This document shows positions 5,599 through 63,331 of a stretch of 63,331 nucleotides of DNA, one piece after another. This DNA comes from Chlorobiota bacterium (lineage in GTDB: Bacteria; Bacteroidota; Ignavibacteria; Kapaibacteriales; NICIL-2), in the NCBI GenBank assembly GCA_026415505.1, contig JAOAGY010000027.1, positions 1 through 63,331 of the forward strand. Reading direction: 5' to 3'. The translations under genes were made by a program, and so were the position numbers. The notes under the pieces are model-generated. The model worked only from the letters and a program-made list of their open reading frames with translations. It did not search any database and was not told the origin of the DNA. The first letter of the stretch is position 1. Each line of letters starts with the position of its first letter.

Positions 5599-7254
5599 GT
5601 GAAGTTTGTATCACAAAGTGCGGCAATCGCTATGCAAGCGACGTTCGTTTTCTTCTCGGTGCTCATGCTTGCTGTGACGCTGCTTCCAGCCCAATGGATC
5701 CGCGTCAATGGCTCATTCGGTGCGTCGGCTGATGCTTACCGTGCCGTCGGAAACACCGCACGGCTGCCATCGGAAACCTACCGGGCAGTCGGGCGCCTGA
5801 GCTTCGTGCTGGCAGACCAAATCGAGCTGCCGATCGAGCTGTATCTCAACAGCGGGCAGATCGGTTTTCAGCAGCCGTTCAATCAATTCGGCATCACGCC
5901 ACGGTTCGGATGGCTCCAACTCTACGGCGGATGGTATTCGGCACGCGTGTCGGATTTCACATTCGGCGATCTGCGGATTCTCGGCGGTGGCGCAGAGCTT
6001 TCGCCTGGTGCGTTTCGATTGGCGGTGCATTACGGCTACACGCGCCAAGCGCGCGATCCCGACACGGCATACGCATTTTTTGGTGAATACCGCCGACGTG
6101 TCATCATCGGCAAGCTTGGCTACGAAGCCCACGACGGCAGCTTTTTCACCATCCAGGCGATGACCTCGCATGACGAAGCCGGCTCAATCCGCCGCGACAG
6201 TCTCACGCCGACGCCGCAGGCAAATGCGGTGCTGTCGCTGGCTGGTGGTGTTGCAGCGTTCAACGGTGCTGTCCGACTCCGCGGGGAAGTCGCTACGGGA
6301 TTGTTCACCAACAACATCACCGCCGGTGTCGATAGCGCTCTCGCGGCGAACATCCCGTCGGCTCTGCAGCAGCTTATCCCGACGAATGCAACCTCGAACA
6401 TCGACGGTGCGGCACGGCTCAATCTGACGATCACGCCGAGCGCAATGTGGGGAATCACACTCGACGGGCAGTGGATCGGACCAGGCTTTGTCACGCTCGG
6501 CTATGCGCAACTGCTCAACGATCTGCTCGACCTGAGTGCATCGCCTTACGTGCGTTTCCTCGACGGCAAACTCTCGCTTCGAGCCACCGTCGGACGCCGC
6601 GCCAACAACCTCCGCCGAACACGCATCGCGACCATCGAGCGCTGGACGGTCAACACAGGTGCCAACTGGCAAATCAGCGACGCATTCGGTGTGGATGTGC
6701 AGTACGGGCAGTACACGATGACCTCCGACCACGCCAACGATACGCTCCGCGCCGATAACCGCATGCAGACAATGACGCTCTCGCCAACATGGCGGTTTGC
6801 TGCCGGCGGGACCGATCACTTCGTGTCGGCATCGCTGACCTACCAACGCACGACCGACAACAACATCGTCAGCGGGCGGTACGGTACAAACTCGGCACTG
6901 AGTGCATCGGCATCGCATTCGGTGCAGCTACCGTCCAAGCTCGGTCTGAGCACCTCGCTCAGCTACAATCGCACGGAAACGTATCTGCAGAACATCAGTT
7001 TCGCCACGCTCAGCGAGTCGGTGACGTATCCGTTCGCCGAACGCTGGACAGCGCGTGGGACGCTTGGTGTGAATGCGACGAGCACGACGCGAACGACGCT
7101 GCAACTGCTGCTCCGCGCTGCGCTGACGTATTCGCTCGGCGACTGGGGCAGCCTGACACTGCAACTGATGAACAACACATTCGACCTGACTGCGCAGCAA
7201 GGTAACCGCTACAGCGAGCTGTTCGGGAGCCTGCAGTACGCAGTCAGCTTTTGA
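5599..7254 (+). CDS. Outer-membrane beta-barrel protein of the TANFOR-like cluster
   Basis: The predicted protein is 551 residues (GTG 5599; an in-frame ATG at 5632 would give 540 and still keep the signal peptide MQATFVFFSVLMLAV). After the signal, the sequence is amphipathic beta strands with aromatic girdle residues throughout, such as FGWLQLYGGWYSARVSDF and ISDAFGVDVQYGQYT. It ends in SLQYAVSF, a C-terminal Phe typical of barrels. No named family was recognised. It is the first gene of a plus-strand run and is followed 27 bases later by the 2453-residue giant. An outer-membrane pore or anchor for that protein is an inference from position only. Confidence 0.65.
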   Translation: MKFVSQSAAIAMQATFVFFSVLMLAVTLLPAQWIRVNGSFGASADAYRAVGNTARLPSETYRAVGRLSFVLADQIELPIELYLNSGQIGFQQPFNQFGITPRFGWLQLYGGWYSARVSDFTFGDLRILGGGAELSPGAFRLAVHYGYTRQARDPDTAYAFFGEYRRRVIIGKLGYEAHDGSFFTIQAMTSHDEAGSIRRDSLTPTPQANAVLSLAGGVAAFNGAVRLRGEVATGLFTNNITAGVDSALAANIPSALQQLIPTNATSNIDGAARLNLTITPSAMWGITLDGQWIGPGFVTLGYAQLLNDLLDLSASPYVRFLDGKLSLRATVGRRANNLRRTRIATIERWTVNTGANWQISDAFGVDVQYGQYTMTSDHANDTLRADNRMQTMTLSPTWRFAAGGTDHFVSASLTYQRTTDNNIVSGRYGTNSALSASASHSVQLPSKLGLSTSLSYNRTETYLQNISFATLSESVTYPFAERWTARGTLGVNATSTTRTTLQLLLRAALTYSLGDWGSLTLQLMNNTFDLTAQQGNRYSELFGSLQYAVSF

Positions 7255-7281
7255 GCATGTTCAACTTTCTGCGGAGGACCA

Positions 7282-10200
7282 ATGCTGGTTCGACGTGTCC
7301 TCGTGGCGCTTGCGTGCTGCATCGGCTCGCTGGCAGCTCAGCCGTTTACCGTCTCGGTCCTTGTGCGCAATCCCGCTCCAACGTCGCTGGAGACGTGGCG
7401 CACCGACCCGACCATCGTTCGGGTGATGCTCACCAACACAGGAACGACTGCACGCGAGGTCGTGCTCGGCATCGTGCTGACCAATCGCACGACCGGTCAA
7501 ACGGTGTCCACGAACAACTCGCATCCCTGCATGCCGGTCTTCCGGCTGGCAGGCGGGGAAACACGCATGCTCGACGGACCCGACCTCATCTGCGAAAACG
7601 CACTCGTCATTGACCCCGCGATTCGGAATTCGATCATCACAGCCGGTGCGATTCCCGAAGGCGATTACGAATTCTGCGTCAGTGTGCTCGATGCCGTTGA
7701 CCGCCGCACGGAACTTGCCACCACTGGCGCTCGCTGTGCGACGTCGCGCATCGTCTGGCCAGAGCCGCCGGTGCTCGTTCGCCCCTTGAGTAGCGATCCG
7801 GCGCAGCGCTGCGATGCGGCGATCCAGCTTCAGTGGCAACCGCTGACGCCTGTACCCCCCGGCGGTGTGCAGTACCGCGTCCGTGTCGTCGGCATGTTCG
7901 AAGGGCAATTGCCCCGCCAAGCGTTGGAAGCTGCAACGCGCACTGAAACCGTTGCCGACGAAGTCGTCGCTACGACGACGTACATCATTGCACCGAACAA
8001 TCCCGTCCTGCTGGATTTGGTACAGCGGCGCTCGCCGCGTCTGGTCGGTCTTGCCTGGCAAGTGGAAGCACAAGACCCGAGCGGACGACCGATTGCCACA
8101 CGCGGTGGCACGCGCGGGAGAAGCGACATCGGCACGTTCACCGTGGAATGCCCCGATGCCGGTTCGGTTGCTTCGTGCAGCGGGACGATGACGCTCCAAG
8201 GCTATTACCCCGTCCCCAGCGACACGATTCCATGGGTGCCGCCGCTTTTGGTCGTGCAGTGGGGACCGTACTGCGACGACGTGCTGCGCATGCAGTACAC
8301 GCTGACGCTCACCGATGACGCCAGTGGAAGCGGCTACACCAACAGCCGCACGCTTTCCTGGCCACGCGGTCCCATCGAAGGACAAGGGCTTTCCGGACAG
8401 TCGAACGCGCACGAGCGGGCGCGGCTTATCATCGTCAATCAGTGGGACGACCGCGGGGCGTTTGTGGAGTGGAATCGTCAGCTCCGCCGCGGTGCGACGT
8501 ATCGCTGGACGGTTGCCGCAACCTTCACCCGTCGCGAGGGACGAGACGAGCGCACCTACACACCCACGTCGGCAGAGCAGCGCTTCAACCTCGGTTTGCG
8601 AATGCCGACCGAACCAAGCCCCGCCGACGGTGCAACGCTCACGACGCGACGCGGTCTGACGCTGCGCTGGACGATACCGCAGCCGACGTCCATCGCACGC
8701 GAGTATCTTGCCGATTTGGTCACGCTGCGCGGCAGCAGCTCCAGCGGGATGCTCTTCGGAGAAGCGCGGGAAGTCGTCCGTGTTCTCGTCGCCCGCGATA
8801 CGACGTTCCGCTCGCCGATCGCCAGTCGCACACTTACCATCCCCGAAAGCGGCAACTTCACCAGCTTCGACGAGCGTGTGCGGGAGCTGTTCGGCTCGAA
8901 AAACGTCACCTGGAGCGAGCTGGAACTCGCCGATGGCGACTATTTCTGGCGCGTCGAATACTGCAATCCCTCCGATACATCGCAGACGTATCGGCGGGGT
9001 CCGATCTGGCGCTTTCGGGTCGGCTCCAGCGTCTCGGCGAGCGAGTGTGTGCGGCTCCGCCCGCATGTGCCCGAACATCGCTCGACCGTGAGCACGCCGA
9101 GCGACGGTCGCATTCGCTTTTCCATCGTCGCCGAGCCGGGAATCCGCCTCGATGCCGTTACCGGATGCCGCGTGCGCATCTGGCAGATGACGAGCGCCAG
9201 CGAAGACCCCGCAGCCGTGCGTGGACGCAGCCCCATGCTGGACGTAACAGTTTCGACTGGCGAAGGGCGACTCCCACTGGCTGAGCTCGGCAGCGGCGCG
9301 ATTGCGCTCAGCTTCATCAATGCCGAAGGAGCGCGCCACAGCTTCACTGCAACGAACGGGCAAACCTACTTGTGGGAATGCGAGCTGCAATACGACGGCA
9401 CTCGCATCCGCTCCGATGGGACGCGATGCGATGTCAGTCGCTCGGTGTGCGAAGGCACCTTCACCTTCCGCGCCGGCGAGTGCAACGATCCGTGCGAAGC
9501 ACCCCTGCCGTCCAACCGCACACCGCTCAGTGGACCTCTCGCTGTCGGCGACGTCATTCGCATCGGGCATTTCGAAGCGGAGCTGACCAGGGTCAGCGGA
9601 CCCAACGACAACCTCTCGGGCGAAGCACTCGTGCGGCTGCCATGGCTGGGGATTCGCATCCGCACGCAGTTTTCGGGAATTGCTGTCAACACCGATCGCC
9701 AGGTCTATAGCGGGCAATTAGAAGCAGCGCAAGCAACAGGCTCGGGGCTGACCCAGGAGCAAGCCAATGCCCTCAGTTCGACACTGGGACTTACCGCAGA
9801 GCAGCTTTCCACCATAGACCGATTCATTGCCGACCACAACCGCTTTGTGAGTGTTTTTACTGCCAATCAACCAGTCGAAATGCCGATCGGCTTCGACCGC
9901 ACCATCGAGGGTTTCCGCGTTGCGGTCGGAATCATCGGTATGGTGTTCCAGCCGACGGGAGCGCGACTCAACCTCGTGCACGTGCAACCGCTGCCGTGGC
10001 TCGGTCCAGGGCAGTCGCTCGGCTTCGGCGTGCGGAACGTGTGCTTTTCGCCGAATGGTTTGGGGCGGTCGCTCGACATTTATTTGGCGAGCGATCTCGG
10101 CTATCGTGCCAGTGACGATTCGTGGGCGATCAATCTCAAAGCACCGCAGCCGGCGCGCAGCGGTTTGCCCGCCGATTCCGGAACGTACGTGCGCATTCGG

Positions 10201-13200
10201 TGTGGTGGCTTCGAGTTCGTGCGGCTTGCTGCCGAGGTGGAGTTTCCGCGCTCGTGGATGGTGCCCTCGCCCGACGATGGAAGCAGCCGTGTGATTCTTC
10301 GCTTTACGACGCTCGTGCGCGGCTCGGGGGATTTTCTCGCCACAGCCACGATGACGCCGTTCAGCCCTGCCGGTGCATCGGGGTTCGTCTTCCGCTGCGA
10401 GAACGTTGCCGTTGACTTCTCCGATCGCGACAATCCCGACGGTATCGCGTTCCCGTCGGGCTATCGCGGCGAAACCAGCACGCGCTGGCGCGGCTTCTAT
10501 TTGGGGCAGCTCTCGATGCAGCTACCCGAAGGCATCCGCGGCTGGAGCAGTACAGAGCCTCCTCGTGTGGAGGTCCGTAATGTTATCATTGACCGCAGCG
10601 GAGTGAACTTCAGCATCGTCGCAGCGAACATTTTCCGCTATCCGCAAGGGAATTTCGGCGGGTGGGGAGCAAGTCTCGACACGCTCGGTATCGCTGTTGT
10701 CAATTCCTCACTACAGCGCGGCTGGATGCGCGGACGGATCAAAGTACCCATCAGCGACTCCTCGCTGGACTATTCGGCAACGTTGCGGGATACGGTGGGC
10801 GGTATTCGCTTCGAGTTCAGCATCACACCACGTGCTGCGCTCAATGTGCCGCTTTGGGTAGCAACGCTCCAACTGGACAACACCTCGTGGGTGCGGCTCG
10901 AAGCGGGTGCAGGCGTCGCACGTGGCTTCCGCGCACGCGCCAATTTCAACGGGCAGATTTCCTTCGGCGGCACGCGCGACATACCGCTCAACCTCGGTGG
11001 CATTCGTTTCCAAGACATGCTCATTCGGTCGGACTCGGCACCGTACATCAGCGTGCGATCGTGGGCATTTGCGTCGCCGCCGCATAGCATCCTCGCGCCA
11101 CCGGAGCCGTCGCCGGACGGCGGTGGGAGCAGCAGTCGAAGTGCAGGTGGCTTCCCGATCAGCATCCGGGAGTTCAGTTTGGTTAGCGCCGATCGCCGCG
11201 AAGGTCCTGGTGTCGGTGTTCGGATCGGGGTGGACGTCAATCTCCAGAGTGGCTCCAACGGCATCAGTGGCGGAACGACAATCTCGGTGTGGGGAGCATT
11301 CCAAAGCAGCAGCAGCGGTCCGCCCTCGTTCGTGTTCAGCGGTATCGACCTGGATTCCATCGGCATCCGCGCCGACATGGGCGCAGTTGCGATTGAGGGA
11401 TACGTCCGCTTCTACAACAACGATCGGGTCTACGGCAATGGCTTCCGCGGTGGTGTTCGGGCGAATTTCGTTCGGATGGTGTTGATCGAAGCGACCGTGC
11501 AGTTTGGTTCCATCGCGGGTCCGCAAGCATACCGCTACTGGTACGTGGATGCGCGTGCCATTCTCGCCAGCGGCATACCGGTGTTCAGCGGGGTGGGTAT
11601 CTATGGCTTCGGTGGCGGTGCATGGTACAACATGCGACCAGAGAGCGATCCTGGTCCGGTAACCCCGACCGGGGGCACAACGACGACAACCACTGCCAGT
11701 ACCGGTGCTGCGGGCTCGACGAACTCGGGTGCACGCTATGTGCCATACTACTCTTCCGGCGGCGAAACATTCGGCTTCTATGCTCTCGTCACCGTCGGTA
11801 CTCATCCCGAACCCAAAGCATTCAACTGCGATGTGCGGTTGGAGGTGAGTTTTGTCGGGGGCGGGATTCATCAAATCCGGCTCCGCGGTGATGCGTGGAT
11901 GATGGCAGGACTCACCGAGCGGCGCAACGCTCGGGTGACTGCTTATGCTGACATCTCGTACACCTTCCCGACCCGAACGTTCTACGGTGAGTTCGGTCTT
12001 ACTGCTAATCTCGAAGCGGTTCGAGCAACGGGACGAATGGTGATGCTCTTTTCGCCGGAGACGTGGCACGTCAAAATCGGCGACCCAGAAGGGCAGCGAA
12101 TCGAAGTGAACGTACTCAATAACCTGATTGCTCTCCGCGCCTATTTCATGGCGGGGATGAATCTGCCTTCGATTCCACCGATTCCTCCGGAAGTGCTGGA
12201 GCTGACAGGTCCGATTCCTGCACCGGTTCGACCGTCTGCATTAGGACGCGGTAACGGCTTTGCGTTTGGAGCGGAAGCCAGATTCGCACCACCGGAATTG
12301 CGATTTCTGATTTTCTACGCGTCCATGCAGTTCATGATCGGTTTCGATATGGCGTTGCTCGATTACGGGGCAACGGCGCGCTGCAGCGATGGTCGTCCGA
12401 TGGGTGCCAATGGTTGGTACGCAACCGGGCAAATGTACGCCCGACTGGATGCCTCGATCGGCTTGTTCGTGGATTTGTGGTTCGTTTCGGGGAAATTCGA
12501 AATCCTTGGATTGCGTGTGGGGGCAGCGCTGCAAGCAGGACTGCCGAATCCGACCTGGCTCGCTGGTGCGTGCGGGGGACATTACAGCATCCTCGGCGGT
12601 GCAATCAATGGTTACTGCAATTTCCAATTCACGCTCGGCGATCGGTGCACGCCCCCGACGGAGTCGGCGCTGGCAAGTATCGAAATGATCAACGATATCG
12701 CACCGGACGACGGCTCGACCGATGTGTCCATCTTTGCCGAGCCGACGGCGTTTTTCAACATCATGCCGGACCGACCGTTCGCACTGGAAGAGATGCAGAG
12801 CGATGGCTCGAGCAGAACGAAGATATTCCGGATTCGGGTCGGTAGCTTCACGCTCCGCAAACGCGACAGCCGCGGCACATTCACGGTGAACGTTCCCGTT
12901 ACCCAAGTCGATCGCTCGACACACGAGGCACCGGCAAAAGCTATCGTGCCATCGGAACCGCTGGAAGGACTCACCGAGTACCGTGCCGAGGTCACGGCAT
13001 ACGGACAGGAGTTCACGGGAAGTTTCAGTCGGCGACCGGGCGAAACGACCGAGCAAGCCAGCGAGCGTGCTGCTCTCCAGTTGGCATCGGCGACGTCGTG
13101 GCGGGATGTTCGCTACAGCACGGGCACGCGGAGCGGTCAGCGCGTCGAACAGACCGTCACGACCACCTTCACCACGCAGCCACGACCGGATACGATCATG

Positions 13201-57403: not shown

Positions 57404-58261
57404 ATGGCAGACATTCGCTCGATTCTCGTTGTCGGTGCCGGAACGATGGGCAACGGCATCGCACACGTCGCCGCGCAGTACGGCTATGAGGTGACGCTCG
57501 CCGATGTTTCTTCCGAGCAACTCGATCGTGCGCTGGCGACGATTCGCACCAATCTCGAACGCCAGGCGAAAAAAGGTGCGATAGCTGAAAACGATATTCC
57601 AGACATCCTCGGTCGTATCGTGACGACGACCGATGCTGCGTCGGCTGCGGCGAAGGCAGATTTTGCCATCGAAGCAGCGAGCGAGAATTTCGATGTCAAG
57701 CGGTCGGTGTTTCGCACGCTCGACGAGCATGCGCCGTCGCATTGCATTCTGGCAACGAACACCTCTTCGATTTCGATCACGACGATCGCTGCAACCACAT
57801 CCCGCGCCGATCGGGTCATCGGGATGCACTTTTTCAATCCCGTGCCGGTGATGAAGCTCTGCGAAATCGTGCGCGGGCAAGCGACGAGCGACGAAACGTT
57901 CGCTGCGACGTTCGCACTGGCACAAGCGCTCGGCAAAACGCCTGTGACGGTGCAGGACTATCCGGGCTTTGTTTCGAATCGGATTTTGATGCCGATGATC
58001 AACGAGGCGGTCTATTGCCTGATGGAAGGGGTCGCATCGGCGGAGGACATTGACACGGTCATGAAACTGGGCATGAATCATCCGATGGGACCGCTTCAGC
58101 TCGCCGATTTCATCGGGCTGGACGTGTGTTTGGCGATCATGGAGGTGCTCCACGAGGGACTCGGTGACGACAAGTACCGTCCGTGTCCGTTGCTGCGACG
58201 GATGGTTGCAGCCGGTTACTTGGGACGAAAGACCGGACGGGGATTCTACACGTACCAATAG
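57404..58261 (+). CDS. hbd: 3-hydroxybutyryl-CoA dehydrogenase
   Basis: The protein has 285 residues. The N-terminal Rossmann fold (ILVVGAGTMGNGIAHVAAQ) binds NAD(P). IEAASENFDVKRSVF, LATNTSSISIT, the catalytic His-Glu pair in IGMHFFNPVPVMKLCEIVRG, GFVSNRILMPMINEA and GRKTGRGFYTY identify the family. It interconverts acetoacetyl-CoA and 3-hydroxybutyryl-CoA in butyrate-type metabolism, PHB turnover or phenylacetate catabolism. It ends the plus-strand run; a change in DNA character follows. Confidence 0.93.
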   Translation: MADIRSILVVGAGTMGNGIAHVAAQYGYEVTLADVSSEQLDRALATIRTNLERQAKKGAIAENDIPDILGRIVTTTDAASAAAKADFAIEAASENFDVKRSVFRTLDEHAPSHCILATNTSSISITTIAATTSRADRVIGMHFFNPVPVMKLCEIVRGQATSDETFAATFALAQALGKTPVTVQDYPGFVSNRILMPMINEAVYCLMEGVASAEDIDTVMKLGMNHPMGPLQLADFIGLDVCLAIMEVLHEGLGDDKYRPCPLLRRMVAAGYLGRKTGRGFYTYQ

Positions 58262-58334: not shown

Positions 58335-58369
58335 TTGTTTTTGAAAAGTTTGGTGTGTATATTGGGGGC
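58335..58369 (+). promoter_or_regulatory. Repeated promoter, copy 1 (T9SS cassette array)
   Basis: TTG (58335-58337), then 20 bases, then TATATTGG (58358-58365). The 32 bases 58338-58369 are identical to 60112-60143. The element lies ~87 bases before the 544-residue protein's ATG. It fits a Bacteroidota -33/-7 layout with one mismatch in the -7 element. Confidence 0.65.
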
Positions 58370-58455
58370 GTAAAGCCGTTCCACTTTTGACTTGGGCTGC
58401 TATGAGAGCGCGCAAGGTGGCGTTCTTTTCGTCAATATTTGAGGGGCATAACGCA

Positions 58456-60093
58456 ATGAAAGCCGCAGTGATGTTGTCGCTGGTATTCGTGACGGTCCAT
58501 AGCCAGATTGACAGCGATTCGGTGTCGGGAAATTTCGTGCTCGAGTGGCGTCACTTCCCTGCGCGTGTGCCGTTTGACAGCAGCTATGGTACGTTCTCTC
58601 CAAACTGCAATTTCACGGCACCACCTTCAGCACGTAAATATTTTGGCTCACAGGCGTTCTGGATCACCGATAACCGCATCGGTGTTCTGCACAAGCTCGA
58701 ACGTGGATTCGCAATCGAGACGTTCGACTCGCTGGCACGCGAGCAAGTGGCGCATTTGTCCCGCACGTTTAGTTTGGGTGAATTCGGTCGTGACGTGTGG
58801 TCTATCGGCGATGCGCGACGATTACGAGAAGGTGGTGTAGGGTTGTGGGGAGTTACGTATTACATGCCGGTGCAGATACTTGTCAACATTCAGGCGCCGT
58901 ATCCCAGTTACTTTTCGACGACAGTGGACTTGGAAACACATTCGGGCGGAATGAAGCAGGATAGCTCGCTACGACGCACAACACGACCACGTCCACTCAC
59001 ATTCGAAGACAACGAAGATTTCGTGCTGAGTTACAATGCATCGTCGTTCGATGACCAAGTTTGTTACATTCTCGAAGACGTCAGTCGTTCGCGGTGGCGG
59101 CTGGTTCTCTATACGAGCGACCTGCAGTGGAAGATATTTCAGAAGGAGTTTCCAGTTCCGTTTCCTGCAGTGATTCGTGATAGTCTCGGACGAGACAGCA
59201 TTTACTACCTCTCTGCAGTGCCGTATGCGATAAAGAACAGCAAGATGGGAATTGCGGGGCGGTCTTTCACGCAATCAGGGGAACGCGTCATTGTATTCTT
59301 CCGTGGCGAAAATTTCGACGATGTTCGCGCAATAAAACTACCGTCTGCGGAGAAAGATGTGGGGTATTTCGTTGACGATGGATTTGTTGTAGATGCATCG
59401 CTGCAGGCTGGGCGATTCATCGTTGCACAAGTATGGGAAAATTGCACAGTCGGTTGGACAACGCAATCGCCGGTGAAAACCATTTTCGCAGGATTCCGCC
59501 AGATTCCCGATAGGGAGATCAAATTCGAACTGCAACCATCTCGTTGGGGTGGATTTTACGTCGTGGGTAATGGGTGCACTGTCAATCCTCCATACTCGAT
59601 GACGTTTTTGGTTCGGTACAATTCGTTCGGTAGAATCAACGGTTTTTATAGAGCTGCTTCGGCGTTGAACTGTGGCATTGGTAGTATCCTCGAACACTAC
59701 CGTGATAGCTCGGTGTATGCTTTCGGAGTATTACATGATTCACAGTTTGTGGTCGCTCGTTTTCGCTTTGAGCCGTCGGATACCAGCAGTATCGGTGGAG
59801 GAAACACACCTTCGGACACGACATTGGGTGTATGGGATCGAGCGGCGTATGGCGGTGTGGAGGTATATCCGCAGCCAGTTCGTCGTGGGGAGCAGTTGCG
59901 CGTGGTGGCGATGGCAGATGTCGAAGCAGTGGAGGTGTGGACGCTCGACGGCAGGCGCGTGGTAGGTATGGCGGTGGAGCGTTCGGGAGAGGTGGCAGGT
60001 GTTTCGATGGATGTTCCGGCGGGTGTGTACGTGGTGGAGGTTCGTAGTAGTGGCGGACGTCAGCAGCGTGGTTTGGTGATGGTGGTGCCGTGA
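58456..60093 (+). CDS. T9SS-exported surface protein, array member 1
   Basis: The protein has 545 residues from ATG 58456, which starts a signal peptide (MKAAVMLSLVFVTVHSQ); earlier in-frame ATGs lie in the leader. The passenger (~residues 20-465) has no recognised family; it is beta-rich and Asp/Arg-rich, with few repeats. A Gly/Ser/Thr/Asp linker leads to a T9SS type A sorting domain from about residue 470: VYPQPVRRGEQLRVV, VEVWTLDGRRVVG and VPAGVYVVEVRSSGG, ending MVVP. The sorting-domain DNA is nearly identical to that at 63081-63311. Surface location is predicted; function unknown. Confidence 0.75.
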   Translation: MKAAVMLSLVFVTVHSQIDSDSVSGNFVLEWRHFPARVPFDSSYGTFSPNCNFTAPPSARKYFGSQAFWITDNRIGVLHKLERGFAIETFDSLAREQVAHLSRTFSLGEFGRDVWSIGDARRLREGGVGLWGVTYYMPVQILVNIQAPYPSYFSTTVDLETHSGGMKQDSSLRRTTRPRPLTFEDNEDFVLSYNASSFDDQVCYILEDVSRSRWRLVLYTSDLQWKIFQKEFPVPFPAVIRDSLGRDSIYYLSAVPYAIKNSKMGIAGRSFTQSGERVIVFFRGENFDDVRAIKLPSAEKDVGYFVDDGFVVDASLQAGRFIVAQVWENCTVGWTTQSPVKTIFAGFRQIPDREIKFELQPSRWGGFYVVGNGCTVNPPYSMTFLVRYNSFGRINGFYRAASALNCGIGSILEHYRDSSVYAFGVLHDSQFVVARFRFEPSDTSSIGGGNTPSDTTLGVWDRAAYGGVEVYPQPVRRGEQLRVVAMADVEAVEVWTLDGRRVVGMAVERSGEVAGVSMDVPAGVYVVEVRSSGGRQQRGLVMVVP

Positions 60094-60113
60094 GGGCTGC
60101 GCGTTGGTTTGTT
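59863..60113 (+). repeat. Sorting-domain/3'-end repeat, copy 1
   Basis: These 251 bases cover the whole T9SS sorting domain, the stop codon and the start of the next promoter. They align without gaps to 63081-63331; I count eight mismatches. Passengers upstream of the two copies are unrelated. Confidence 0.92.
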
Positions 60114-60143
60114 TTTGAAAAGTTTGGTGTGTATATTGGGGGC
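60108..60143 (+). promoter_or_regulatory. Repeated promoter, copy 2 (T9SS cassette array)
   Basis: TTTG (60108-60111), 20 bases, TATATTGG (60132-60139). The core 60112-60143 is identical to copy 1. It begins 15 bases after the stop of the previous array member and lies ~35 bases before the ATG at 60176. Confidence 0.7.
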
Positions 60144-60175
60144 AGAAAGCTGTTTCACTCGTGACCGGAGATGCC

Positions 60176-60841
60176 ATGACGTCGCGCAGTGTAGCTTTTT
60201 CTCTTCTCTTTTTGATGGCGTTGCCGGCGATGTCGCAGCAGCCATGTCCGCCGGGTTGGAACATGACGACAGTGACAATTGGACCGGACCCGAATGGCTG
60301 CATGTGGGAAGTTGATTTCTGCTACTCCTGCGGTTCAGCGACGGCACCATATCCAGGAATTCGAGCTGGTCATCCTCGCCCTGTCGGTAACCCGACATGC
60401 CCAACACCTAACCTCGGTTGGATTATCGAACAACTGATAAGCTACTACCAAAACTTCTGCACCATTCCAGAATGCCTTCCGGAGCCGGATACGTGTGCCA
60501 ATACACTGCAAGTCGTTGTCGAAGGACCCTTGTGCTTCCGGTGGCACGTGTATGTGTACCGCGATGAGAAAGACAGTTGTCGGAATGTCTATCTTAGAGT
60601 CGGTTGTCCCGAACATCGTGGGTACTGTCAGGTGGTTAGTTGCATTTGTTTCACCAACCGTCAGCCGCCGAGGGTTCGGGTATGCTATCTTCAAAGTCAA
60701 GCGTTGAATGTAGATTGTCAGCCATACGAGGAGCCACCACTGTTCGAGTGCAGCGATCGTCCACGGTGGGAATTTTATCCGCAGACTTACTGCATTCAGA
60801 GCGAGTGTAACCTCTCTGAACCTGGTAATTCTTGCCCATAG
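60176..60841 (+). CDS. Cysteine-rich secreted protein, no sorting tail
   Basis: The protein has 221 residues from ATG 60176 with a signal peptide (VAFSLLFLMALPAMSQQ). The mature part has about 20 Cys residues, mostly spaced as CxC, CPxP and single Cys (DFCYSCGSATAP, CTIPECLPEPDTC, CQVVSCICF, CIQSECNLSEPG), suggesting disulfide bonding. No family was recognised and there is no T9SS tail. It is read from the repeated promoter and ends one base before the next gene, with which it must be co-translated. It may be a partner that is secreted or retained with the propeller protein. Confidence 0.7.
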   Translation: MTSRSVAFSLLFLMALPAMSQQPCPPGWNMTTVTIGPDPNGCMWEVDFCYSCGSATAPYPGIRAGHPRPVGNPTCPTPNLGWIIEQLISYYQNFCTIPECLPEPDTCANTLQVVVEGPLCFRWHVYVYRDEKDSCRNVYLRVGCPEHRGYCQVVSCICFTNRQPPRVRVCYLQSQALNVDCQPYEEPPLFECSDRPRWEFYPQTYCIQSECNLSEPGNSCP

Positions 60842-60842
60842 G

Positions 60843-63311
60843 ATGTCGAACAGATACGTGGAGACGGTCATGAAGTGGATGTGCGCGATCGTGGCCATGA
60901 TTGTGGAACTGACCTGTTTGGCTCAGGACTTTCCGTATCGCATCGAACGAGTTAGCGTGGATTATCGTGGTGCCGTCGCAAACGACAGAGCGATCCTTTG
61001 CTATGGCAACCACGGTGTCATTACTGCATCGTACGACCGTGGTACGACGTGGCAGCAATTGAGCATCGGAGAACGCTACGATATTTACTACATTCAGCGG
61101 TGGCGGAACATGTTCGCAGGGGTGCATCGCGGCGGCATCATGTGGTCGAACGATGACGGGCGACACTGGCAGATCCGCATTATTGCAGCAGGAGAGGACG
61201 TCGTCGCGGGGTGCGGTCGGGATAGCATCGTGTACGTATTGCTACGCGACCGCGTCATGCAGTGGAATCTCGAACGTAATAGCGTCGAACTATTCGTCGA
61301 GCTGGACACATCGCTGCAGTGGATAGATATTGCATGTACCAGCAGGTATCTGTACGTTATGGCTACCGATTCGCTCGACAATTTCATTGTGCGAGGTATT
61401 CAATACGATCGTCTCGAAATGCTTCAAGACCGATACTTCAGTTCGTATCATAGCGCAGTGCATCTATCGGTGGCAAACGACACCCTGTATGCTTTGTGCG
61501 AACCTGTGGTCTTGGCGAGAGAAGTCGGTGATTATTTCTTAGCCTCATCGTCGCTTTTTGTATTGCCTGCAGGTCGCCTGACGACCAAGCGTGTTGCGTT
61601 CATCAGGATGAGAGGGTCGGCATATTTGGTGGAAGGCAATGTCGTTCGGTATCTCGGATTCACTCGGGAGGGGAACTTCCAGCTTCGCTATTACGAGACG
61701 ATTCTCGATTCGACAAGAGATTTCCAGCCGACCGCAGTTGTCGGAGTCGCCGAGGATCGGGTGCTCCCATTCTCATTACGGAGACCGCCGTTCAAGATGA
61801 CCAGAATCGTTCGCATCGGCAATAGCGGGGACAGCTTGCTTGCGGTTGGCGAAAACAAGATTATCGTTATGTCGACCGATGGAGGGAGTACATGGCGGTG
61901 GTGTTCGATCTTTTACTACAACTACTATCTCAACCTTGCCTATCAATCACCGGTGTACAGTGACTCGTGGTTTACGGTGTTTACATCGCCTGGCTACACC
62001 TATTACTCACTCCTTCGAAGCAAAGATGGGCTGACGACATTCGTTCCGCAACGCCGATGGTTGACGGGTTCTCCATCGCTATCTAACATTCTGTGGCACT
62101 TCGAACCCGATGGCAGAGGATTTATTCAGTACGGACCGAATTCACGGGGAGTGAATCTCGACTCGGCACTGGCAGTGACGACCGACTATGCCGAGACATT
62201 CGAGTGGAGACCGAGCATCACCCGATCATCGTATGGATGGGGGAGCGCTACAAGACCACTGCGATTGGGAGATACGTTTCTCGTTGTGGGGCGATTGACC
62301 CGTCGTGACACTGTCAACAATACCGTGCTCATCAACAGTAGCACGATGATCTATCGCTACAATGCACAGCTCGAGTCGGTGGATACGGTGGTCGTTCAGA
62401 ATCGGATACCTCTTCTCATGCAGAGTTTCGATGGTCGGAATGCGGTTGTGTTTCTGTGTTGCGACACACTCCAAAGCGCACAGGGGGATACACTCTACTC
62501 TCATACGGTGCTCTTATCCACCGATGCAGGTAGCCGATGGGAGACGCGTTCGCGACTCGATCTACCCCGTCGGATGGTTGGAGCGGGCATCGCGGTCGAA
62601 CGCAATGATGGAGGTAAAATTTACTTCCGATCGAGCTGGGGCGCCATCTATGTGTATCGCTACCGCGACAATGTGTGGGATACGATCATGTCACCGTCGC
62701 CAAACGACCTGGACGGTGTTCAAATTGCGTTCTTCGATCGCAAGTTGTGGTTGCTCGGCGCATTCGATACGACGACCAGGATTTACTATTACGATCTCGA
62801 TCAGCGGTCCGGTTGGGATTCGTTGACGCTTTCCGAGCACTTGTCGGAGTGGTATGGATGGTCTCTATCGAACGATCTCATCGGTTCGATGGCGATGATG
62901 GGTATTGTAGCGAGCACCGATTCGGCACTGTTTATCTCGATCGGCAAGCGGGTGTGGAAATTGGCATATGACGGTGATCTAATCCCATTCGAAATGGAAA
63001 TTCTCCGAATTGCGCGCGCCAGTAGCATTGTCAGCGTGGATCAAGACGGCGCATCTCGTGACGGTATCGAGGATATTCATGTATATCCGCAGCCAGTACG
63101 TCGTGGGGAGCAGTTGCGCGTGGTGGCGGTGGCAGATGTCGAAGCAGTGGAGGTGTGGACGCTCGACGGCAGGCGCGTGGTAGGTTTGGGGGTGGAGCGT
63201 TCGGGAGAGGTGGCAGGTGTTTCGATGGACGTTCCGGCGGGTGTGTACGTGGTGCAGGTTCGTAGTAGTGGCGGACGTCTGCAGCGTGGTTTGGTGATGG
63301 TGGTGCCGTGA
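60843..63311 (+). CDS. T9SS-exported Asp-box beta-propeller protein, array member 2
   Basis: The protein has 822 residues from ATG 60843 (ATG 60870 is an alternative with the signal peptide WMCAIVAMIVELTCLAQ). The passenger carries at least four Asp-box motifs of the form SxDxGxxW (SYDRGTTW, SNDDGRHW, STDGGSTW, STDAGSRW), as in sialidase- and Ycf48-type beta-propellers. The C-terminal ~78 residues are a T9SS sorting domain (VYPQPVRRGEQLRVV, VEVWTLDGRRVVG, VPAGVYVVQVRSSGG), nearly identical to that of array member 1. No sialidase catalytic Arg triad was identified, so an enzymatic role is not claimed. Confidence 0.78.
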   Translation: MSNRYVETVMKWMCAIVAMIVELTCLAQDFPYRIERVSVDYRGAVANDRAILCYGNHGVITASYDRGTTWQQLSIGERYDIYYIQRWRNMFAGVHRGGIMWSNDDGRHWQIRIIAAGEDVVAGCGRDSIVYVLLRDRVMQWNLERNSVELFVELDTSLQWIDIACTSRYLYVMATDSLDNFIVRGIQYDRLEMLQDRYFSSYHSAVHLSVANDTLYALCEPVVLAREVGDYFLASSSLFVLPAGRLTTKRVAFIRMRGSAYLVEGNVVRYLGFTREGNFQLRYYETILDSTRDFQPTAVVGVAEDRVLPFSLRRPPFKMTRIVRIGNSGDSLLAVGENKIIVMSTDGGSTWRWCSIFYYNYYLNLAYQSPVYSDSWFTVFTSPGYTYYSLLRSKDGLTTFVPQRRWLTGSPSLSNILWHFEPDGRGFIQYGPNSRGVNLDSALAVTTDYAETFEWRPSITRSSYGWGSATRPLRLGDTFLVVGRLTRRDTVNNTVLINSSTMIYRYNAQLESVDTVVVQNRIPLLMQSFDGRNAVVFLCCDTLQSAQGDTLYSHTVLLSTDAGSRWETRSRLDLPRRMVGAGIAVERNDGGKIYFRSSWGAIYVYRYRDNVWDTIMSPSPNDLDGVQIAFFDRKLWLLGAFDTTTRIYYYDLDQRSGWDSLTLSEHLSEWYGWSLSNDLIGSMAMMGIVASTDSALFISIGKRVWKLAYDGDLIPFEMEILRIARASSIVSVDQDGASRDGIEDIHVYPQPVRRGEQLRVVAVADVEAVEVWTLDGRRVVGLGVERSGEVAGVSMDVPAGVYVVQVRSSGGRLQRGLVMVVP

Positions 63312-63331
63312 GGGCTGTGCGTTGGTTTGTT
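63081..63331 (+). repeat. Sorting-domain/3'-end repeat, copy 2 (runs to window end)
   Basis: Copy 2 of the 251-base unit described at 59863-60113. It includes the stop at 63309-63311 and TTTG at 63326-63329, the -33 of a third promoter copy cut off by the window edge. Another array member therefore probably follows. Confidence 0.9.

Follow-up and report, generated by a model that had tools for sequence, protein, structure and literature searches.

A T9SS surface-protein gene array in a Chlorobiota bacterium with probable concerted evolution of its tail, promoter, and leader sequences

The window analyzed here, a stretch of 63,331 nucleotides, is the entire contig C40 in the genome (2.29 Mb, 99% complete) of a Chlorobiota bacterium, a thermophilic, hot-spring bacterium of the Kapabacteria type. 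Downstream of hbd, at the right end of the contig, we found three genes, A, B, and C, together with the promoter-like and repeated sequences listed in Table 1, and the contig end falls inside one of the repeats. Contig C15, when reversed, opens with TTGTTTTTGAAAAG and picks up exactly at the last bases of C40. We infer that C40 is joined directly to C15, which is supported by the hbd-to-pepF synteny seen in congeners; because the two contig ends overlap by only 5 nt, extra array units could also lie between them. Read from C40 into C15, the order is hbd - P1 - A - tail - P2 - B - C - tail - P3 - A' - tail - P4 - B' - C' - (different tail) - pepF. The joined locus from hbd to pepF is one three-gene module, A-B-C, present as two divergent copies, with identities between modules of 47% for A/A', 66% for B/B', and 40% for C/C'. 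An earlier note on this DNA, made from its sequence, had called the passengers unrelated; A and C are dissimilar gene types, but both are members of one module that is present twice, and since each has a paralogue in the second module, they are not random passengers.

Table 1. Features of the array and its left flank (window positions)
Feature	Position	Strand	Remarks
hbd, 3-hydroxyacyl-CoA dehydrogenase-like	57404..58261	+	Left flank of array
Promoter P1	58335..58369	+	TTG 58335-58337, 20 nt, TATATTG 58358-58364; Bacteroidota -33/-7 type
Putative remnant of B-like gene start (ATGAGAGCGCGCAAGGTGGCGTTC...)	58402..58455	+	Between P1 and A; 90-nt repeat D2, 80%
Gene A	58456..60093	+	Hydrophobic start; body resembling a beta-propeller; type A T9SS sorting domain (TIGR04183, 23.5 bits)
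Homogenized block	59809..60352	+	13 mismatches in 544 aligned nt versus C15
A-type sorting domain copy 1 (YPQPVRRGEQLRV...)	59865..60090	+	On A
Promoter P2	60109..60143	+	TTG-N20-TATATTG; core identical to P1
Gene B, small Cys-rich protein, predicted to be secreted	60176..60841	+	In other genera, homologues immediately precede those of C
T5 then CTCTTCTCTT in putative B signal-peptide codons	60196..60210	+	T7 in B', whose frame does not match its ATG
Gene C, BNR/YCF48-like beta-propeller with A-type sorting domain	60843..63311	+	
A-type sorting domain, C copy	63083..63308	+	Joined at GTATATCCGCAGCC (YPQP motif); C' paralogue with different tail
P3, first bases	63327..63331	+	Continues at start of contig C15 (reverse strand)

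All three proteins have hydrophobic N termini when read by eye. The curated TIGR04183 cutoff is 23 bits; A scores above it, and C reaches 22.9 bits as a full protein and 27.9 bits in the genome search, so both carry the sorting domain. The genome also encodes the T9SS translocon protein SprA (TIGR04189, 915 bits), and the products of A and C are predicted to be at the cell surface. The AlphaFold model of A has a mean pLDDT of 60 and matches propellers, a low-confidence lead that A may be a beta-propeller, while C resembles sortilin/YCF48/BNR propellers with scores below the curated cutoffs. Profile searches matched B to no known family. In three genomes of other genera (L141, L142, and L144), the gene immediately upstream of a C homologue is a B homologue, which shows B-C to be an old gene pair. 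The Cys-rich B-like gene and the BNR-propeller T9SS gene form a conserved two-gene unit across these genera.

Each of P1 to P4 has the form TTG-N20-TATATTG, with the TTG just upstream of a 32-nt core. As the earlier note had claimed, this core is identical before both transcription units of the window (58338-58369 and 60112-60143), with no such match expected by shuffling, and the last bases of the window match the start of a third copy, which C15 continues. The counterpart in the congener SKYG14 reads TTG-N20-TATATT and that in KatS3mg040 reads TTG-N20-TAGATTTG. The Bacteroidota -7 box has the consensus TAnnTTTG (PMC9723704), which these sequences fit, and P1 to P4 probably act as promoters. 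We looked for a wider set of genes using this promoter and found only the four copies genome-wide, even with a 19-nt core.

The two tails of the window lie in a 251-nt direct repeat (59863-60113 and 63081-63331) with 8 mismatches and no gaps, just as the earlier note had described it. When the contig was extended rightwards and the genome was searched, as that note had proposed, we found the 251-mer exactly three times and the promoter core four times, with the extra copies of both at the end of C15. The near-identical DNA is also longer than was claimed, since it continues into the start of B. In an alignment spanning A through the whole of B, the homogenized block is 97.6% identical between modules, compared to 40 to 65% up to 59808 and mostly 37 to 65% after 60352, where one 60-nt bin reaches 78%. 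The segment score of the block is 479, against a maximum of 36 in 2,000 shuffles, and its edges are sharp, as in a conversion tract. Within the block lie the sorting domain, the stop codon, the spacer, promoter P2, and the opening codons of B. Noncoding and coding DNA in it are equally alike, so selection on protein is not the cause of the likeness.

A profile search found approximately 67 TIGR04183 tails in the genome, and we compared 64 tail loci and the four array tails all versus all. Among the fetched tails, near-identical DNA across the tail was confined to the three array tails and one pair on contigs C22 and C32; the remaining matches were overlapping neighbor loci, repeats not spanning a tail, or short weak matches. 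The C22 (L109) and C32 (L110) loci are two T9SS genes with a common tail and ∼240 nt downstream at 96% identity, and their contigs overlap by exactly 141 nt, which suggests that they are adjacent. We also observed in KatS3mg040 (G004) an inverted, distant 1.76-kb stretch (C1:365164 and 2170186; L116 and L117), 99.5% identical, that spans the C-terminal part and tail of two large T9SS proteins.

The passengers and the tails of the array differ in apparent age. Synonymous sites of the passengers are saturated along A/A', B/B', and C/C', as they are between A' and the A gene of a congener, whereas Ks falls to 0.02 over the final 55 codons of A/A'. Passenger Ka/Ks was below 1 wherever it was computable. 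In the passenger tree, A' groups with A of SKYG14 and SKW269 (99/97), and a grouping of A with A' is rejected (AU p 0.0099). The tail tree, in contrast, groups A with A' (100/100) and rejects a grouping of A' with the congeners (AU p 0.0016). Because of long branches in the passenger tree, we treat the conflict between trees as supporting, not sole, evidence. The congener's tail at the matching place is ∼72% identical. Copies within the genome are more alike than orthologues between genomes in the homogenized part only, a pattern that characterizes concerted evolution.

The tail of C scores a z of 29 to 31 with the A tails, compared to a z of 11 to 12 against the congener's A tail. The tail of C' differs from these; it has the LDC..G.Y pattern typical of C homologues in other genera, which it matches with weak scores (z of about 4 to 5). 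The junction in C is formed by the codons for YPQP, the motif with which the sorting domain begins. Between A and pepF, a C-type tail remnant is found in SKW269 (G003) and, by near-identical DNA, in SKYG14 (G001), which means that this place was formerly occupied by a C gene whose tail was of its own type. The replacement probably went in the direction of an A-type tail onto C.

Five congeners were compared at the locus, among them Candidatus Kapaibacterium sp. SKYG14, Chlorobiota bacterium SKW269, and Candidatus Kapabacteria KatS3mg040 and KatS3mg039. Each of the five has just one A gene at this position, with hbd at its left and, where the contig reaches that far, pepF or a heptosyltransferase-like gene at its right. 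In SKYG14 and SKW269, a tail stub, a stop codon, and a promoter are followed by a Cys-rich gene, X, and then by A. The stub matches the A tail of its own genome at 61 of 70 nt and the tails of the window genome at 40 to 42 of 67 to 68 nt; being closest to its own genome's A tail, it indicates that homogenization was separate in both lineages. Leader stubs precede A and A' in the window genome, and a stub of the end of X precedes A in KatS3mg040. The tail, leader, and X stubs fit deletions having occurred between repeats. BLAST and profile comparison found no homology between X and B, which have the promoter and leader region alone in common. The A protein alone had no match in the named genome collection, and a profile of four sequences found the four named relatives. 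Gene order at the locus is unchanged both between G001 and G003 and between G004 and G005, which are two pairs of close relatives, and no passenger exchange was seen at the locus within either pair.

Beside rpoC in the same genus there is another T9SS tandem array, with near-identical ends around a saturated middle (amino acids ∼206 to 296 in the G004 pair). It has three tandem copies in KatS3mg039, with two tail types mixed, and two in KatS3mg040 (L169, G005:C1:1658000-1675000, reverse strand 6062-10493; L149, G004, 898-2418 and 11233-12690). The copy in the window genome (L170, G000:C20, reverse strand 7145-8000) is 98.1% identical to a G005 copy over 742 nt, compared to 83.8% in the adjoining longer alignment that contains rpoC, which suggests that this copy may have been exchanged between species. 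We count the rpoC array as support for a general tendency to tail recombination.

From these comparisons, we consider it probable that the hbd-to-pepF array is a concertedly evolving T9SS surface-protein family in which tail-promoter-leader units have been homogenized, one tail has been replaced, and several genes have been lost. Gene conversion and/or unequal crossing-over among the repeats would keep homogenizing the segment from the sorting domain through the stop codon and promoter to the beginning of the following gene, and the passengers would meanwhile diverge as old, vertically inherited paralogues. In at least one event, the C passenger would have become fused at YPQP to an A-type tail, and deletions between repeats would have removed genes, leaving the tail-promoter stub in the sister species and the leader stubs before A and A'. 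The recombination mechanism itself is deduced from its products in the DNA; recombination between the tail-promoter repeats is strongly supported by the low tail Ks against saturation, the sharp block edges, the tree conflict, the swapped C tail, and the deletion remnants in congeners.

Near-identical tails and promoters could also come from a recent tandem duplication followed by very fast passenger divergence under diversifying selection, the tails being unchanged because they are young. Saturated passenger synonymous sites contradict this explanation, as do Ka/Ks values below 1 where computable and the closer relationship of A' to the A genes of congeners than to A, and we give it almost no weight. 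That a special sorting domain and promoter are kept alike by strong purifying selection, without recombination, is just as hard to credit: the TIGR04183 match and the promoter-like site imply that both elements are functional, but silent-site identity contradicts this view, in that the tail Ks is so low and the noncoding spacer is identical, and both the congener's tail and over 60 further tails in the genome are divergent. The contig does stop inside a repeat, a typical site of assembly errors, and the tail at its end could be a chimeric join to another copy. This is very improbable, since the C copy differs from each of the other two by substitutions of its own (8 and 11 differences), the reading frame is unbroken through the junction, and a comparable tail-promoter remnant lies at the matching place in G001 and G003.

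The earlier note had read the repeats as a passenger-exchange platform: through recombination at tails and promoters, whole passengers would be exchanged, lost, or gained, and the cell surface would vary in consequence. The promoter-passenger-tail order does recur, and the rpoC array combines a variable middle and near-identical ends with mixed tail types and differing copy number. That note took only two copies and the same passengers in relatives as grounds against its reading; we found three tails, and the congeners differ in gene content. However, the passengers are old paralogues, present at the orthologous place in relatives and not newly exchanged, B-C is an old gene pair, and order is kept here in the two close pairs of relatives. 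We therefore regard such a platform as unlikely. Recombination survives from the proposal of modular exchange, but its visible products are homogenized and replaced tails around old passengers, together with gene loss; fresh passengers moving in or out were not seen, and, with one genome of the species examined, an active passenger-exchange system is not supported.

The leader sequences raise a further possibility. A separate promoter copy and an open passenger are present in all four units, with B' alone out of frame (L008, about 10922-10952, minus strand). The frameshift at the T7 tract of B' could be a recent loss, slippage switching, or a sequencing error, and we take it as a lead only. 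The leader codons of gene X contain (CTCTT)5 in SKYG14 (G001; L056, about 8713-8737) and (CTCTT)2 in SKW269 (G003), both out of frame, and B of the window has two CTCTT units; another leader CTCTT run lies elsewhere in G004 (L151, about 1501-1525). It is conceivable, though we think it rather improbable, that thermophilic Kapabacteria have a surface-variation system in which recombining tail-promoter-leader cassettes are combined with CTCTT and poly-T slippage in the leaders of Cys-rich partners, on in B and off in B' and in X of the sister species. If so, slow remodeling would be joined to fast on/off switching of exported proteins. An arrangement of silent donor cassettes with one expression locus was not found at the array.

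T9SS tails are commonly regarded as interchangeable address labels. The array that we interpret as concertedly evolving would be a natural record of one such label copied onto a different passenger at an exact domain border, with the promoter and the next leader traveling along, and it illustrates how surface proteomes may be rebuilt in little-known relatives of the Bacteroidota. It is also a caution that T9SS cargo trees built on tails can mislead. In the literature that we searched for concerted evolution of T9SS genes, or for recombination among tandem sorting domains, there was no direct precedent.

Three known systems offer comparisons. In Neisseria, opa genes have CTCTT repeats in the leader and recombine between loci (PMC3960869), a likeness to the CTCTT units in the leaders of X (SKYG14 and SKW269) and B that is a lead only; the array has few repeat units, unrelated proteins, and a different export route. 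The tandem leucine-rich repeat (LRR) proteins of Flavobacterium psychrophilum carry TIGR04183 tails (PMC5682007), and their gene copy number varies from 16 to 23 between isolates (PMC8400371). Like the array, they are tandem T9SS-exported surface proteins whose gene number changes within a lineage and whose repeats trouble short-read assembly. They are, however, one passenger family, whereas the array has three dissimilar gene types with homogenization limited to the tail-promoter-leader segment; copy change at the strain level is shown for the LRR genes, and the array is known from one genome of its species. In Porphyromonas gingivalis, rgpA, kgp, and hagA undergo domain rearrangement and allelic exchange (PMC5266723), so that there, as in the array, T9SS cargo modules including the conserved C-terminal domain are reshuffled between paralogues by recombination. 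The modules exchanged among population alleles of P. gingivalis are adhesin modules inside proteins, while the unit in the array crosses a gene boundary and takes with it a promoter and the next signal peptide.
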